A stretch of 64,000 nucleotides of DNA, from contig NZ_JAGGMN010000001.1 of the NCBI RefSeq assembly GCF_017875325.1, positions 434,001 to 498,000 on the forward strand. Direction: 5' to 3'. Position numbers and translations under genes: made by a program. Below, piece by piece: positions 6,937 through 63,669 of this stretch (position 1 is its first letter; each line of letters begins with the position of its first letter). The stretch is from Methanofollis sp. W23 (lineage in GTDB: Archaea; Halobacteriota; Methanomicrobia; Methanomicrobiales; Methanofollaceae). The notes beneath the pieces were generated by a model. It had not been told where the DNA came from. It was given only the letters and a program-made list of their open reading frames with translations, and did not search any database.

Positions 6937-7561
6937 TGAATACCGCTCATTACACGGGCTCAACCTCTGTCGCTACACCTCGCGAGAGCCCTCTCCTCTC
7001 TCCATGCATCAACACGGTCTGGGGACCTCCCCGAGGATGACCGCAAGAGGACAGAACAGATCCCACAACCCCCAGGGGTGTGCGCACCCCCTCGAATCAA
7101 AACATTCTTTTCAGAGATTCCGGCTCTGGAGAACCCCTCCCCTATCGTGTGGGGGAGACGTGTGTCCCTCGCCATCTCACCTCTTCATGCCGGAGGCGCT
7201 GCCCCCCGGTCGAGGCCAGGGCGTCGCACTCCAGGAAGGAAAGATTTCAGTTCAAGACGAGGGTCGGGCCTCAGGGAATTTTGGGACATGCTCATGGTTC
7301 AGGAATGATCGACTAGAACCTGGAGGATCGTCGCGCTGTGTGTGGTGTCGAAGTGGATCTCGTGCATGGTGATGTGGACGTAGGGGTAATTACAGACACA
7401 CGCCTTGATGAGTGGCCTGACCTGCAGTGTGGAGAACCGGACAGTCGTGATACTCTGTGAATATCAGTGTGGTCCTGCCGGCGTGCGCAACGGATCTGCG
7501 CGAAAAAAGAGGAGACGAACCAGGGGAGATGGTTGCACCCAGTCTTCCATTTATTTCAGGC
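6937..7561. repeat. Gap filled with degenerate repeat copies
   Basis: No convincing gene is present. Positions 7084-7172, on the minus strand, match the segment at 63330-63440: a GGGACACACG-CTCCC stretch, then an end-like GGTTCTCCAGAGCC, then GAATCTCTGAAAAGAA. Positions 7186-7217 hold a decayed GC hairpin. Positions 7232-7305 resemble the outer repeat seen at 42.83-42.90 and 62.69-62.76 kb (CAGGGAATTTTGGGACATGC). The whole gap looks like an old nest of the window's repeat family. Confidence 0.55.
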
Positions 7562-26073: not shown

Positions 26074-26259
26074 GTGGAGTGAGGTCTCCATCAAGTCTCC
26101 AGTCTTGAAAAGAGAGAGAGAGTGCGTGCTCTCGCCTCATGAAAAATTACCATGAAAACGATCTAGGCGATCCTCTCTTCAGGTTTGCATGAGAGTTTGA
26201 ACTCGCCATATCCCGTTGAAGCCGATACACAGAGGATAGAAAATTCTTCAGATGGATCG

Positions 26260-26477
26260 GCCGCCCCCAATCGTCGAGATTTCCCTGCCATCTCGCGCCG
26301 GGGGGTTTCACCCCCCGGACCCCCCCCACGGACAGAAGATAGGCAGGGGCGGCGATAGAACAGGATCCACACCGATTCCCCTATCTTGAAAAGAGAAAGA
26401 GAGAGCACGTGACGAGAAATTTTCATCGCGTATGCCTGAGGCGTGCTTTCCCCTCATGCAAAATTCTAGAGAGCCCG
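26260..26477. repeat. Hairpin module joined to an inverted terminal segment
   Basis: The GCCGCCCC-bounded hairpin module (26260-26353) is followed by CTTGAAAAGAGAAAGAGAG, then GAAATTTTCATCGCGTATGC, and ends TTCTAGAGAGCCC. The last part is the right end of the miniature element family. The order module, spacer, terminal segment repeats at 40402-40629. Confidence 0.82.
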
Positions 26478-30691: not shown

Positions 30692-30947
30692 GGCTCTTTA
30701 GAATCATATATGGGCCGGGATCACGCCTCACGCCTACGAGATGAACATTTCTCGTCGCGTGTTTTCTCTCTTTTCAAGACTGGAGAATCGGTAGAGACCG
30801 TGTTCAATCCGCCGTTCCCCCCAGCGAGAAAATGGAGGAAGGCCGTTGAATCGCGCTCGCACCGAGAATAGGTGAGGGGTTCTGCAGGCCCGAAAATTTT
30901 CATCGTGTATGCTTGAACCACGGGTTCATGCTGAACTCTACAGCGCC
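30692..30947. repeat. Miniature inverted-repeat element, degenerate copy
   Basis: Left end GGCTCTTTAGAA, right end AACTCTACAGCGCC. The right terminal segment (from about 30893) reads GAAAATTTTCATCGTGTATG and then CTTGAACCACGGGTTCATGC. The left part carries CTCTCTTTTCAAGACTGGAG, the reverse complement of the spacer at 26095-26400. The hairpin core is mostly lost. Confidence 0.68.
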
Positions 30948-40151: not shown

Positions 40152-41057
40152 GCTGAGGGGGCGGAACTTCGTGATCGCTCGTCTTCCCTTTCGCGCGTTT
40201 TCCAGGGTTGCGGGCGCCGCATGGAGATCAGTGAGGATAGATCAACGGCCTGAAGATGTATACTCAAGAAAGGGCTCTGTAGAATTTTTCATGAGGCGAG
40301 CGCCCGCCTCAAGCATACGCGATGAAAATATCAGATCAGATCTGGATTGATTCCTGACCCTCATCCTTGCGTTCGTGGAGTGCATCGAAGTCGAGCATCA
40401 TGCCGCCCTCAATTACAGAAAACTTCCCTGCCGTCTCGCGCCGGGGGGTTGCACCCCCCGGATCCCCACGGACGAAGAGAGTCGAGGGGCGGCAGGTCCA
40501 GAGATCTCTGGCCGTTCCCCTGTCACGAGGAGAAGGATCAAGGATCATCTCACACACCAGAGACCTGCACTATGAAATTTTCATCCCGTATGCTTGAGCC
40601 AGGGGTTCATGCCCAATTCTACACAGCCCAAGAAAGTTTGTACGATGAATCGGTGAAGGTCTCATGAAAAAAACCTGGATTTCTTAAATATCCTCTATTT
40701 TTGGCTCTGTAGAAAAATCCTCTTTTCATCACTTCAACCCCCCTGTGAACTGAATCCATCGCCTTCCCTCATGCTTATGCCGGGGGCGAGTGCCGCCCGG
40801 ACCCCTGGATGAAGATTGGGGCGGAAGGCGGAGAAATGACCATGAATGGGGGGTTGCTGTCCACTGTCTATCTTCGCGCCGGGGTTCGGGGAGCGGCCGG
40901 CCCCCCATCGAAAAGAACCATCAGGATGATTTCTACAAAGCCCTATTTTTTACGATAGGCCGGCGATGTCGTTGCCGTCTCCCTGGCGTTCCTGATTTTC
41001 GCAGATAAAACCCGCAGATATATATGTGCATCAAAATCATCTCCGGATGTATCCATC
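40152..41057. other. Gap with a complete miniature element
   Basis: No gene seen in 906 bp. It contains the intact inverted-repeat element at 40273-40629, a lone end GGCTCTGTAGAA at 40703-40714, a decayed GCCTTCCC-bounded module at 40761-40829, and the TATA box of the beta-lactamase gene at about 41018-41026 (ATATATATG). Confidence 0.65.
40273..40629. mobile_element. Miniature inverted-repeat transposable element, best-preserved copy
   Basis: This 357-bp element has inverted ends GGCTCTGTAGAA (40273-40284) and TTCTACACAGCC (40618-40629). The inverted similarity extends about 55 bp inward: the left side reads GGCGAGCGCCCGCCTCAAGC then ATACGCGATGAAAAT, the right side ATTTTCATCCCGTATGCTTG. Between them lies the GCCGCCC-bounded hairpin module (40402-40493) with CCGGGGGGTTGCACCCCCCGG. 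It encodes no protein. The left half through the hairpin module is repeated in the same order at 46409-46600. Confidence 0.8.
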
Positions 41058-42557: not shown

Positions 42558-43177
42558 GCGGACCAAAAAACGGTTCTGTAGAAATCTTCATGAATCTTTC
42601 TGGCGGTGGGCGGCACGCCTCCCAAACCCCCGCCACAACACGATCGTTCGAGGACGGCATCACCCCTCATGGTCATCTATTCTGCCTTCTCGGCTCCGGG
42701 GGTGCAACCCCCGGCGAGAGACGACGGGAGAGGTTCTGCACTGAGGGCGGCATGTTCTGATCATCATACCTTCCCTCACCATACACGCCGGCGGCACTGC
42801 CCCCGGACCCCAGTGGAGGAGAGAGTTTAGAATTTCTGAAAGGAAGCACTTTGGTTCGGAGGGATGTTCACCCCAAGAGAGTTTTGGGATATGCTCATAG
42901 GAAACCCTCCTGTCGAGTGATCACTCCCGAAGAGGAAGATCGATAAAATCGTTGCTCCTTGCGTAAGTGACCAGAACCTGCCGCAATAGTCGAGGAGGAC
43001 AAGATCTGCTGGCACTTTTCGACCACGAGCCCGGTTTTCTCCCTCTCTGCGATCGGCGGCGGTCCCTCCCTGACATCGACCCCTGCGATGACCGCCGCCG
43101 CATTCGCGGTCTGGAGAGTGGGATAGAGACCTCCACACTTTTTTAATACTCCGACGACCACTTCCCTCCTGATCGCC
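42558..43177. other. Gap between beta-lactamase-like and thioredoxin genes
   Basis: The left half is repeat material, listed separately. The right half (42905-43137) has no feature I can support. TTTTTTAATA at 43139-43148 is a likely TATA element for the thioredoxin gene, with a very short leader. Confidence 0.55.
42572..42904. repeat. Miniature-element end, decayed hairpin modules and outer repeat
   Basis: It starts GGTTCTGTAGAAATCTTCAT (42572), a second type of left end whose reverse complement closes the copy at 62687. Decayed hairpin modules occupy 42605-42810. The last part, AGAATTTCTGAAAGGAAGCA then CCCCAAGAGAGTTTTGGGAT, is the outer repeat also at 62688-62755. Confidence 0.7.
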
Positions 43178-46226: not shown

Positions 46227-46732
46227 ACTTTTTCTTTCAAGTCTTTCAAGACCTCTGCCGCCTGGTTGCCGCCCGCCACGGGCCCCTTGGTGGGAGACTG
46301 GTGGATCAGGTGAGGGGGGGGCTCTGTCATGGTCCCATTGGACCGGCATCTCACTTGAGTCGCGCTCGCCCCGGGAATCGGTGAGAGTTTCTACAGAACC
46401 CTGATTTCGACTCTGTAGAATCTGGCATGAGTCGAGAGCACGCTTCAGGCATATGGGATGAAAATATCATCTCAAATTTGATCAATTCTTGACCCTCATC
46501 CTTTTACGAATGAGGAGTGATCGAAGTCGAGCATCATGCCGCCCCCCAAACCCTCGCACCATGATAGGTCGAGGACGGCAGTCCCTCTTCAAGAATTTAG
46601 AATATGCCTTCCCGGCCCAATCTTCACCCCTGGAGTCCGGGGAGCGGCACGCCACTGGGGCGATTCATGAGGGAAGGCGGGAGAATCACGCGTGCTCCCA
46701 TAAAGGGTGAGCGTTTTTACGGGGCTCTTATT
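46227..46732. other. Gap with a miniature element and adjoining ends
   Basis: One element end (TTCTACAGAACC, 46389-46400) and the start of the next (GACTCTGTAGAA, 46409-46420) lie only 8 bases apart, so two copies were once adjacent. Positions 46227-46380 show no supported feature. Confidence 0.6.
46409..46727. mobile_element. Miniature inverted-repeat element with two hairpin modules
   Basis: The left terminal segment is at 46409-46468 (GGCATGAGTCGAGAGCACGC, then CATATGGGATGAAAATATC). A spacer ending TCGAAGTCGAGCATCATGCC is nearly identical to that at 40386-40404. Modules GCCGCCCCCC...GGACGGCAG and GCCTTCCCGGCCC...GGGAAGGC follow (46538-46679). A decayed right end reaches about 46727 (TTTTTACGGGGCTC). 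Confidence 0.72.
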
Positions 46733-47547
46733 TCAGAATCTTCGTACTTCTCCCTCCTCGACCCTCTTGTATGAGGTCTTTGCCAGTTCTCCGGGGGTGA
46801 AAAGGATCGAGCACCTCACTTCGCTCCCATCGATCCCGACCTCCTCTATACCCGCGCCGCTCCCGTGCTCGGTCTTCACGGTCTTGTCGGGGATAGGGAC
46901 CGTGCAGACTGAGAGGTAAAAGACCGGCGAGGAGGCACCTGCGGTCGAGGCCCACTCAAGAGGAGTGAGGGTTTAGTTCTCCATGAGGTACACCCTGACG
47001 GCGGGGGGAGCATAGGTCACGCCCCTGATCTCATTCAGGCGAATGGTCCAGTTCCCTTTCCCATACAATCCGTCTGGACCGACTGCTTCGAGGTCTTTGA
47101 AGACCTGGTCTGGATGGGGGATGCTAGGGAGCGCGCGGTCTTTGGTCGGTGTGACGCTCACGGTGCCGTCCTGTTGGTAGTAGGCATTGAAGTGCTGACG
47201 CGCTCCATCGATCACGCCTGAAAAAATGAGGTTCATCCGGACGATACGCCCGTCCTCCCGACGGGGGTTTGCACCCCCCGGACCCCCCGCCACACGATAG
47301 GTCAAGGATGGCATCCCGTCTATCAGGATCTTCTTTTCAGCCTTCCCGGCCCAATCTTCATCCCGGGGGTCCGGGGGCAGCGCCCCCGGCGGGAGGCTAT
47401 GGGAAGGCGAATGACACGCATTTTTCCTACGATAAGTGAGGGTTTCTACAGAGCCCTTATCATCCCGCTCTCTTCCATCACCCCGCTACACCCCGCGGTG
47501 CAGAGGAGAAGAATCAGGAGTCCGGGAATGGAATATGAGGAGTGCAT
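46733..47547 (-). pseudogene. Lipoprotein gene broken by a repeat element and a stop codon
   Basis: An intact lipoprotein start at 47547 (MHSSYSIPGLLILLLCTAGC lipobox, then SGVMEE) is preceded by a TATA box placed for a leaderless message. After about 26 residues the frame runs into repeat DNA (47250-47455) and stops at 47446. Beyond the repeat, in another frame, coding-like sequence resumes (from about 47236: MNLIFSGVIDGARQHFNAYY, VFKDLEAVGPDGLYGKGNW). It meets a TAA at 46973-46975 and continues in the same frame for 79 more residues (TLTPLEWASTAGASSPVFYL, GSGAGIEEVGIDGSEVRCSI) to a TGA at 46733. The intact protein would have had about 200 residues. The middle may be partly lost. Family unknown. 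Confidence 0.68.
47250..47455. mobile_element. Miniature element copy inside the lipoprotein pseudogene
   Basis: It contains the hairpin GGGGGTTTGCACCCCCCGG, the GCCTTCCC...GGGAAGGC module with CCGGGGGCAGCGCCCCCGG, then GACACGCATTTTTCCTACGA and the right end TTTCTACAGAGCC (47443-47455). The same right half is at 63330-63392. The left end is missing or unrecognisable next to the coding remnant at 47236. Confidence 0.72.
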
Positions 47548-48453
47548 GGGTCCACGCACCATAATATATTCCACATGCGATAATTGTTGCTGATATCCTT
47601 GGCGATGGAGAGGAGCAGGAGACCGAGACCATGCTCCTGCCTCTTCCCCCTTCGCTCGTTCTCGTAAGATTAAGAGAGGGGCGGGGAAGGCAGGATAGGT
47701 GATCATGACGAGAGGGGGGCACAGGTCCACACACCATGGCGACCCACGATCATGTTCAATCGTGTATGCGTAAGCCGGAGGTTCATGCCCGATTCTACAG
47801 AGTCCTCAGGTATGGCTGGCGAGTGACGGGGTGTCATGAGGGACGTTCGCCCGCATGACGATTGGCACATGTGCACCTGGTATGCACCGAAATTGTACTG
47901 AAAACGTGCAATGAAAGCGGACGGAGGAGTGGTCTTAGAGTACCTATTCTAGAGAGAGGAGAGAGAGATCTCTCTCTCATAGTACTCTATTGCACCAGAT
48001 TGAAGGAACACCCACCACGCTCGATCGGGCAGGGTCTCTGTGGATGTGTGTGCGCGATCGGGATCAGGGTGCAGATGAGGATCAAATCGCTGGTAAAAAA
48101 GTTTGATTGAAGAATGGGATTCAAAATATCTCTTATTCGGTGGCAGTCGTGGTGTGCAAACGGGTGTATGCCGGTGCACAGGTGCAAACAAGACGACGAT
48201 GCATTTTCTCGCCGGCATGCGGCGGGACTGTTGTTCAAGGGTCTGTGGAGAAGAGTGTGGTGCTCATCGAATATAGGATTTGTTTGTGAGTTCTCTCCTA
48301 GAAAAAGATGTGAGGATAGATCATCCCGTGCCTTCACGGATCGATGCGTCGGAGAACCGATCGTTTCAGCACCCCGTGATGGAGATGCTCACCACAGGAC
48401 GGTAAGCACCAGAAAAATGGCGAACGAGTTTTTCCTCGTGCCGTCTCTTCGGT
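47548..48453. other. Gap with pseudogene promoter and scattered repeat remains
   Basis: ATAATATATT at 47561-47570 is the TATA box of the broken lipoprotein gene on the minus strand. A right-end segment lies at 47755-47805 (GGTTCATGCCCGATTCTACA). A perfect palindrome GAGAGAGATCTCTCTC is at 47961-47976. I see no gene; ORFs across 47860-48470 have unconvincing compositions. Confidence 0.5.
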
Positions 48454-62099: not shown

Positions 62100-62988
62100 T
62101 ATTTATGTGTGCATCCCCTCGCACTATAATACTAACTGGAAATCTTTATGATACGTTGAGTGCTCCGGGTATTGGCGCATAATCTGACAGATCCCGTGGC
62201 CCGGATCACCCCCCGGGCGCGTCAGACGCGGTTTCAATGGTCGTGTCCCGAAATAACGCCGGGACGTCCCCCGGGCTTTCGAGGATTCCTCTTGATTGGT
62301 CAGGGGGCGTGGACAACGGTCTTCCAGGGTCGCCGGGGTCAGGAGAGATCTCAGGGGGCTCTTCTGTCTTCACCTCGATGGGGGGAGGGGAAGAGAGGCA
62401 TGAACCGAAGAAAGGCTTCCTCTCTTTGGTGGGGAGGGGTCGCCGTTCGAGAATCCATGACTTTCTGGCCCTGCAGAACCTCTTCTTTTTTCATCACCAT
62501 ACCCTCTCTCTGGCTCACGCCGGAGGCGTGTCCCGGGATCCCCTGGATGACGATAGGGACGGGAAGGCTGGAAAAAAGATCCTGAAAGGCGAGATGTTGT
62601 CTGTTGCCTCTCTTCGTGCGGGAGGTTCGGGGGGCGGCATGCCACGCCCCCGCCAGAGAGATTCATCAAGAGGATTTCTACAGAGCCGAAAGGATGCACT
62701 TCAGTTCGAAAAAATGTTCACTCCAAGAGAGTTTTGGAATATGCTCATGGCAAACCCGTGCCGATTCTTGAAGGCGTGATGATCAGATCGCTCCTCCAGA
62801 ACAAGAGCGCCGGTCCACAGACCCAGGGACCCACGAGAGTGTGCAGCCACATATGCGCGGGGCCTGGTAGTCCACGGGCCGCATATCCCCTGTCTCCTCC
62901 CCTGCCCGGGAACCACAGCCTCCATGCCGGGTCGGCGAGGGCGTCTGGCCAATATCTTTATTTTCGAGGAGCGACAATAGGTAATAAC
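62100..62988. other. Gap with tbp promoter, decayed repeats and tRNA promoter
   Basis: No gene seen. The tbp promoter occupies the first 40 bases. Positions 62150-62460 show no supported feature. Repeat remains fill 62468-62755. CTTTATTTT at 62955-62963 is the likely TATA element of the tRNA gene. Confidence 0.55.
62468..62755. repeat. Decayed miniature element and outer repeat
   Basis: Decayed GC modules lead to GGCATGCCACGCCCCCGCC, then AGAGAGATTCATCAAGAGGA and the end TTTCTACAGAGCC (62675-62687), the reverse complement of the left end at 42572. The outer repeat follows (62688-62755; GCACTTCAGTTCGAAAAAAT, then CACTCCAAGAGAGTTTTGGA), also found at 42840-42900. Confidence 0.7.
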
Positions 62989-63073: not shown

Positions 63074-63669
63074 CTTCGTTTCTGAGATCTTCTTTTGAAA
63101 GAGCGTATGCCCTCAGTGTTCGAGTGTTCCAACTGGGGGTCCTGTAGAAATCCTCCCCCTCTTCGTTGCCCAACCATGCCTTCCCACGCCACCGCGCCGG
63201 GAGGTTCACCCCCCGGACCCCTGGGATGGCGATAGGGGCGGGAAGGCAGAGTGATTGATCGTGAAGACGGGTTGCGATCCCCTGGCTATCTTCATCCAGG
63301 GGGTCTCGGGCGGCAGTCGCCCCCGTCGAAAGGCCGTGGGAAGGCGGGGGACACACATTCTCCCTGCGATACGTGAGGGTTTCTACAAGGCCAGAATTTC
63401 AGAAAAGAAGCACTTCGGTTTGAAGGGATCTGCTCCAGGTCTGCGTGAAGCGAGATCTCTCTGCAGACCCGAAAGTGCAGGACAATTCAGGAGAGTGTCT
63501 CCGGGCATTTACAGGGGACGATACTTTGAGATATGGTGCATCTCCACGCCTGTGAGGGCCGGTGAAACCGGCCCGACACCGCGCTCTCCCCGCGGCCCCG
63601 CGACACGATCACGGCCAACACAGAACCCACATATACCCCGGAGACCATAGCCGGACCTGTGAACGACCT
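63074..63669. other. Gap between the tRNA gene and the last gene
   Basis: T-rich sequence (63079-63102) may terminate the tRNA transcript. An end-like GGTCCTGTAGAAA occurs at about 63139. Repeat modules occupy 63178-63440. CATATACC near 63630 is the likely TATA box of the gene at 63670. Confidence 0.55.
63178..63440. repeat. Intergenic hairpin modules with a miniature-element right end
   Basis: GCCTTCCC...GGGAAGGC (63178-63247) encloses CGCGCCGGGAGGTTCACCCC. A second decayed module follows, then GGGAAGGCGGGGGACACACA, ACGTGAGGG and the end TTTCTACAAGGCC (63380-63392), then the outer repeat GAATTTCAGAAAAGAAGCAC. The right half aligns with 47395-47455. Confidence 0.75.

Follow-up and report, generated by a model that had tools for sequence, protein, structure and literature searches.

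A family of miniature inverted-repeat elements in a Methanofollis genome and its probable IS5-family parent

The element at positions 40273-40628 of the window (the whole 64,000-nucleotide stretch of Methanofollis sp. W23 DNA that was analysed) is very probably a miniature inverted-repeat element (MITE) that was mobilised in trans by the IS5-family DDE transposase of a ~1.0-kb insertion sequence, judging from comparison of ends, duplications and transposases across the genus and beyond. It belongs to a large family of MITEs, characterised by short size, shared terminal inverted repeats, a target duplication of fixed length, an empty site and a partner insertion sequence with the same ends.

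The focal element and its family in the host genome

The focal MITE is bounded by GGCTCTGTAGAA on the left and GGCTGTGTAGAA (reverse complement) on the right, and the same perfect 8-bp sequence, CAAGAAAG, lies on both of its flanks. The preliminary description had recognised an element here and given it 357 bp; the element is real, and its length is 356 bp, because base 40629 belongs to the target duplication. The inverted ends, extended inverted similarity and GC-rich hairpin described for it were all found, with inverted arms reaching ~55 bp inward as blocks of 36 and 23 nt that are 83% complementary, and with a DNA fold z of -5.0 for the element relative to its shuffles. No transposase gene is present in the element, and its central hairpin module is common to many other copies, in either orientation. 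The features are as follows, none with an assigned strand:

40273..40628: focal MITE, 356 bp, with type C arms round a GC-rich hairpin module
40265..40272: left target duplication CAAGAAAG
40629..40636: right target duplication CAAGAAAG
40402..40495: central GC-rich hairpin module with approximate boundaries, about 130-222 in element coordinates

The genome search with the 12-bp ends and their flanking repeats that the preliminary description had proposed yielded 265 exact copies of the 12-mer GGCTCTGTAGAA in the own genome, which has 2.9 Mb in 2 contigs, while the reversed control of this 12-mer had 0 copies there. Within 0.51 Mb of own-genome stretches that were chosen around ends, and that do not amount to an unbiased whole-genome count, 177 inward-facing end pairs were found at a spacing of 80-700 bp. 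A perfect 8-bp flanking repeat was present in 32 of these 177 pairs, whereas the number of such pairs averaged 0.4 over 200 shuffles and never exceeded 4. When the length of the repeat was left free between 4 and 12 bp, 32 pairs fell at exactly 8 and every other length was represented by three or fewer. The duplicated sites are AT-rich and near-palindromic, with a consensus of about GAAATTTC. Among copies validated by a duplication, which span 99-672 bp, the main class measures ~230 bp and another class, shortened internally, ~123 bp, while the many singletons reach 672 bp. Many further copies carry no recognisable duplication. Placement is mostly intergenic, and the Rfam search gave no family match. 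Together with the empty site in a congener described below, the shared ends and exact 8-bp duplications bear out the earlier proposal of a non-autonomous miniature inverted-repeat family.

Several other members lie in the window, again with no strand assigned:

40703..40942: second MITE, 240 bp, a young insertion; duplication CTATTTTT present, site empty in congener G005
40695-40702 and 40943-40950: the CTATTTTT duplication on both flanks of the 240-bp MITE
7122..7209: MITE fragment, left end GGCTCTGGAGAA, from BLAST and end search
26147..26475: MITE-like copy with an end at 26464-26475, lacking an intact pair and a duplication
30692..30947: degenerate copy of 256 bp whose two ends can still be recognised, with 1 and 2 mismatches; duplication absent
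42572..42826: MITE-like copy, left end GGTTCTGTAGAA, from BLAST and end search
46355..46725: MITE-like stretch in which two ends abut, 8 bp apart (46389-46400 and 46409-46420; spacer CTGATTTC)
47259..47455: MITE-like copy, right end exact, from BLAST and end search
47709..47804: MITE fragment, right end GACTCTGTAGAA (reverse complement), from BLAST and end search
62467..62687: 221-bp copy, left end with 2 mismatches, right end exact, duplication absent
63138..63392: 255-bp copy, 2 mismatches at each end, duplication absent

In a BLAST search with the duplication-validated elements, about 20 MITE-like intervals accounted for 4,097 of the window's 64,000 bp (6.4%), whereas the reversed window gave 0 bp. 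The degenerate 12-mer occurs 57 times in the window against 41.6 expected by chance, a modest excess. Most of the end sites listed in the preliminary description are true copies or fragments according to BLAST, and among the listed sites both ends with an intact duplication are found only at 40273-40628 and 40703-40942. At 46389-46420, exactly 8 bp (CTGATTTC) lie between the outward-facing ends, an arrangement that would fit two elements inserted side by side with a shared duplication.

The parent insertion sequence and its probable loss

Matches to DDE_Tnp_1 in relatives of the host sit within ~1-kb elements that bear the MITE ends. These parent elements, intact in congeners and in other families of the order, are 977-1,014 bp long and have one open reading frame. 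Their ends are GGCTCTGTAGAA, GGCTCTGTTGAA or variants close to these, and perfect 8-bp duplications flank many of them. The full-length insertion sequence with the same ends that the preliminary description had suggested looking for is thus represented by IS5-family elements in G005 (a 1,008-bp copy with duplication GAACAATC), in G009 (a broken 954-bp copy), in G020, which belongs to a different family and holds seven near-identical 1,009-bp copies, and in others. Relatives of the transposase were found in 54 of the 159 genomes of the order. The transposase, a DDE enzyme of ~300 aa, matches the NCBIfam IS5 profile NF033579 with an E-value of 2.4e-70 (237 bits versus a cut-off of 140) and the Pfam profile PF01609 with an E-value of 2.5e-21. 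D118, D191 and E247 (numbered by the first sequence of alignment A2), which the IS5 motif pattern marks as putative catalytic residues, are invariant in 14 of 14 aligned transposases. The transposase profile matched no solved structure, and the phage search returned no strong relative. The reading frame of the parent transposase runs through the end of the element, and its final residues, EFYRA, come from the terminal inverted repeat (L083, L085, alignment A2).

The MITE ends equal the parent ends exactly over up to 20 bp, and similarity between MITE and parent is confined to the outer 12-20 bp. Beyond their first ~14 bp, the type C arms (55 bp) of the focal element have no match in any intact insertion sequence. 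These limits, together with the many copies that carry no recognisable duplication, count against the favoured reading, and the comparison gives no support to an origin of the MITEs from this parent by direct deletion.

The preliminary description had stated that no transposase with such ends lies in the window, and this extends to the whole genome, which holds a truncated relic only. No match to the parent transposase was found in the own genome at an E-value of 1e-6, and a profile search detected only a fragment pair at C1:1034446-1034613, where the NCBIfam profile also places a match below its cut-off. In this relic (L196:1501-1621, G000 C1 about 1034512-1034632), residues about 122-144 are joined to residues 260-293, followed shortly, at the 3' end of the relic, by an exact TTCTACAGAGCC terminal repeat and then GAAATTGC; on the other side, it abuts a fragment of an unrelated gene. 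The MITEs of the own genome are orphans whose parent has probably been lost.

In the proposed mechanism, the transposase would bind the MITE ends and excise or copy the element, which would then be joined to staggered cuts 8 bp apart in the target. The parent would have been active in the host lineage after its split from G005 and subsequently lost, a loss that would have left the truncated relic and the orphaned MITE population.

Three other loci were considered and rejected. The first, L087 (G000 C1:19483-23340), has type C arms whose GGCTCTGTTGAA ends lie 2,788 bp apart, and no target duplication. It contains a DDE_Tnp_1 gene, interrupted by TGA, which alone among those of the own genome passes the cut-off. 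The second, a 1,488-bp unit of nested mobile elements (L095:1398-2885; G005 C1, about 1048042-1049529) with the perfect duplication GATAATAT and type C ends, resembled a direct parent, but reads as a MITE cluster with further MITE pieces and a different, two-ORF IS5-like gene, the relatives of which (L090, L097) do not have these ends. The third, a 1,677-bp end pair in G004, consists of two MITEs flanking a cellular gene.

Alternative origins of the ends and arms

As the ends start with GG..CTGT and IS6, too, typically makes 8-bp target duplications, the copies could have been taken for IS6-type MITEs, and the preliminary description had noted such a loose resemblance. This resemblance did not hold up, however, as PF13610 had no match in the own genome or in 12 relatives (0 of 13) with control genomes positive, and ~1-kb elements with these exact ends contain IS5-family transposases, so that an IS6 origin is exceedingly improbable. 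ISL3 and IS1595 also produce 8-bp duplications, and the ends of ISL3 are similar (GGCTCTT...), a likeness that serves as a lead only. Derivation from either of these is hardly credible given that an IS5 parent was found, that the Pfam profile PF01610 for ISL3 is absent from the own genome with controls positive, and that PF12762 for IS1595 is absent from nine genus members (the own genome and eight congeners), its sole match being in G015, which belongs to another family. The GC-rich hairpin modules with their strong folding, the mosaic interiors with block exchange and the mostly intergenic placement would also suit structural or regulatory repeats that are maintained by the host (REP- or terminator-like) and spread by recombination instead of transposition. 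We consider this very unlikely in view of the exact 8-bp duplications, the empty site, the ends identical to those of an insertion sequence and the exact-end counts, which range from 0 to 356 within the genus. The MITEs may nevertheless have a secondary role in transcription termination.

The main alternative concerns the type C arms, which might come from a second, unseen autonomous IS5 relative, in which case there would be two MITE lineages that share the outer 12-14 bp only. Type C arms (GGCTCTGTAGAATCNGGCATGA...) are common to many copies in several species, are found at both ends of no intact insertion sequence, and in one locus, L089, precede an IS5 transposase gene. Mixed elements, however, in which a type C end is paired with an end of type A or B, also carry perfect 8-bp duplications, which suggests that one transposase evidently accepts both types of end. 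On this evidence we judge a second autonomous relative to be unlikely, though appreciably less so than the origins weighed above, and favour mobilisation by the ~1.0-kb IS5-family element. At L089:1000-2500 (G005 C1, about 2308225-2309725), the IS5 gene follows a type C arm with a GGCTCTGTTGAA end and is followed in turn by two tandem right ends; this locus is possibly a hybrid of a MITE and an insertion sequence.

Relation to known elements and history of the copies

By size, a single open reading frame and an 8-bp duplication, the parent is consistent with the ISH1-type group as described for ISTth7 of Thermus (IS5/ISH1, 900-1150 bp, 8-bp duplication, one ORF; PMC6352166). ISH1 of Halobacterium itself has 1130 bp and 8-bp duplications (PMC10264941), and the parent is alike in its one DDE open reading frame, its 8-bp duplications, its size (977-1014 bp) and its match to the IS5_2 profile. 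Archaeal MITEs related to IS5 have been reported from Methanosarcina acetivorans (ISMma12, 140 bp, 24 copies; ISMac15, 252 bp, 12 copies), M. barkeri (ISMba19, 147 bp, 5 copies) and M. burtonii (ISMbu10, 185 bp, 5 copies) (PMC3852290 Table 4), and similarity limited to the ends is usual between archaeal MITEs and their partners (PMC3852290). The present family resembles these in being short and gene-less with less than ~20 bp of end similarity to an IS5 partner, but differs in having far more copies (265 exact ends in 2.9 Mb), in its clean 8-bp duplications, and in a partner that is lost from the host and kept in congeners. In addition, 19 orphan "MITE-like" repeats without an autonomous partner have been reported in archaeal genomes (PMC3852290). 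The present family shares with these its inverted ends, its duplications and a host without an intact partner, whereas its lost partner could be identified, both from elements in relatives and from the relic that the host retains. Among high-copy bacterial MITEs, which include Correia with >120 copies, ERIC with up to 711 and Chunjie (PMC10969869), copy number is of the same order and size variation and intergenic placement are likewise seen; ends and hosts differ.

While MITEs derived from IS5 in methanogens, orphan MITE-like repeats and families of >100 copies have already been described (PMC3852290, PMC10969869), this MITE family was not found described in the limited open-access literature searched. 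What is new is a large MITE family together with its parent in a methanogen genus, otherwise of a well-known kind and representing ordinary transposon biology. It provides a worked case in which relatives and a relic allow an apparently orphan MITE to be traced to its lost parent, and this tracing and the rearrangement of an interior module are its two modestly interesting features. As ~6% of the window is MITE-derived, annotation of these genomes should treat intergenic repeats and hairpins as MITEs instead of taking them for regulatory elements by default.

Comparison of orthologous sites places two neighbouring copies at different ages. In G005, the gap orthologous to that of the 240-bp element lacks this element and contains a single CTATTTTT between flanks that are otherwise alignable, and this clean empty site proves the insertion of the 240-bp copy. 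The focal MITE, on the other hand, is present at the same position in G005 in a 389-bp version that shares its duplication and its imperfect right end. As the duplication is the same on both sides in both species, the insertion of the focal copy predates the split from G005. The outer parts of the two versions align well and the interior does not, positions 99-176 matching in opposite orientation, with the central hairpin module of the focal element inverted relative to its G005 counterpart. The focal copy is thus an older insertion whose interior was rearranged later. Congener G001 retains only the left part of the focal element, and G004 is without the region through a larger deletion and is therefore not a clean empty site for this copy. 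Orthologous gaps carrying copies at identical positions in distant species, without shared boundaries or duplications elsewhere, had been named as evidence against a mobile family; such a gap was found for the focal copy in one close congener, where it marks the older insertion, and shared boundaries and duplications were found elsewhere.

Congeners have between 0 and 356 exact copies of the 12-mer. The highest count is in G001, a 360-contig, 81%-complete assembly in which the transposase is present only as a fragment. With hundreds of copies in two congeners whose genomes now have no intact transposase for them, these numbers may reflect a hit-and-run burst: the autonomous element would have passed through, amplified the MITEs and then disappeared, while the copies still evolve by recombination at palindromic hairpin modules, including the inversion of the focal module; we put this forward tentatively, as a reading with somewhat less than an even chance. 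The 23-base type C pattern has matches, among named genomes, only in Methanofollis sp. MAG contigs, and the closest relatives of the own genome make up one genus; both findings point indirectly to Methanofollis as the host. Finally, an end variant with TTGAA has 59 copies in G004 and is rare elsewhere, and TTGAA ends are also found on some of the parent insertion sequences.
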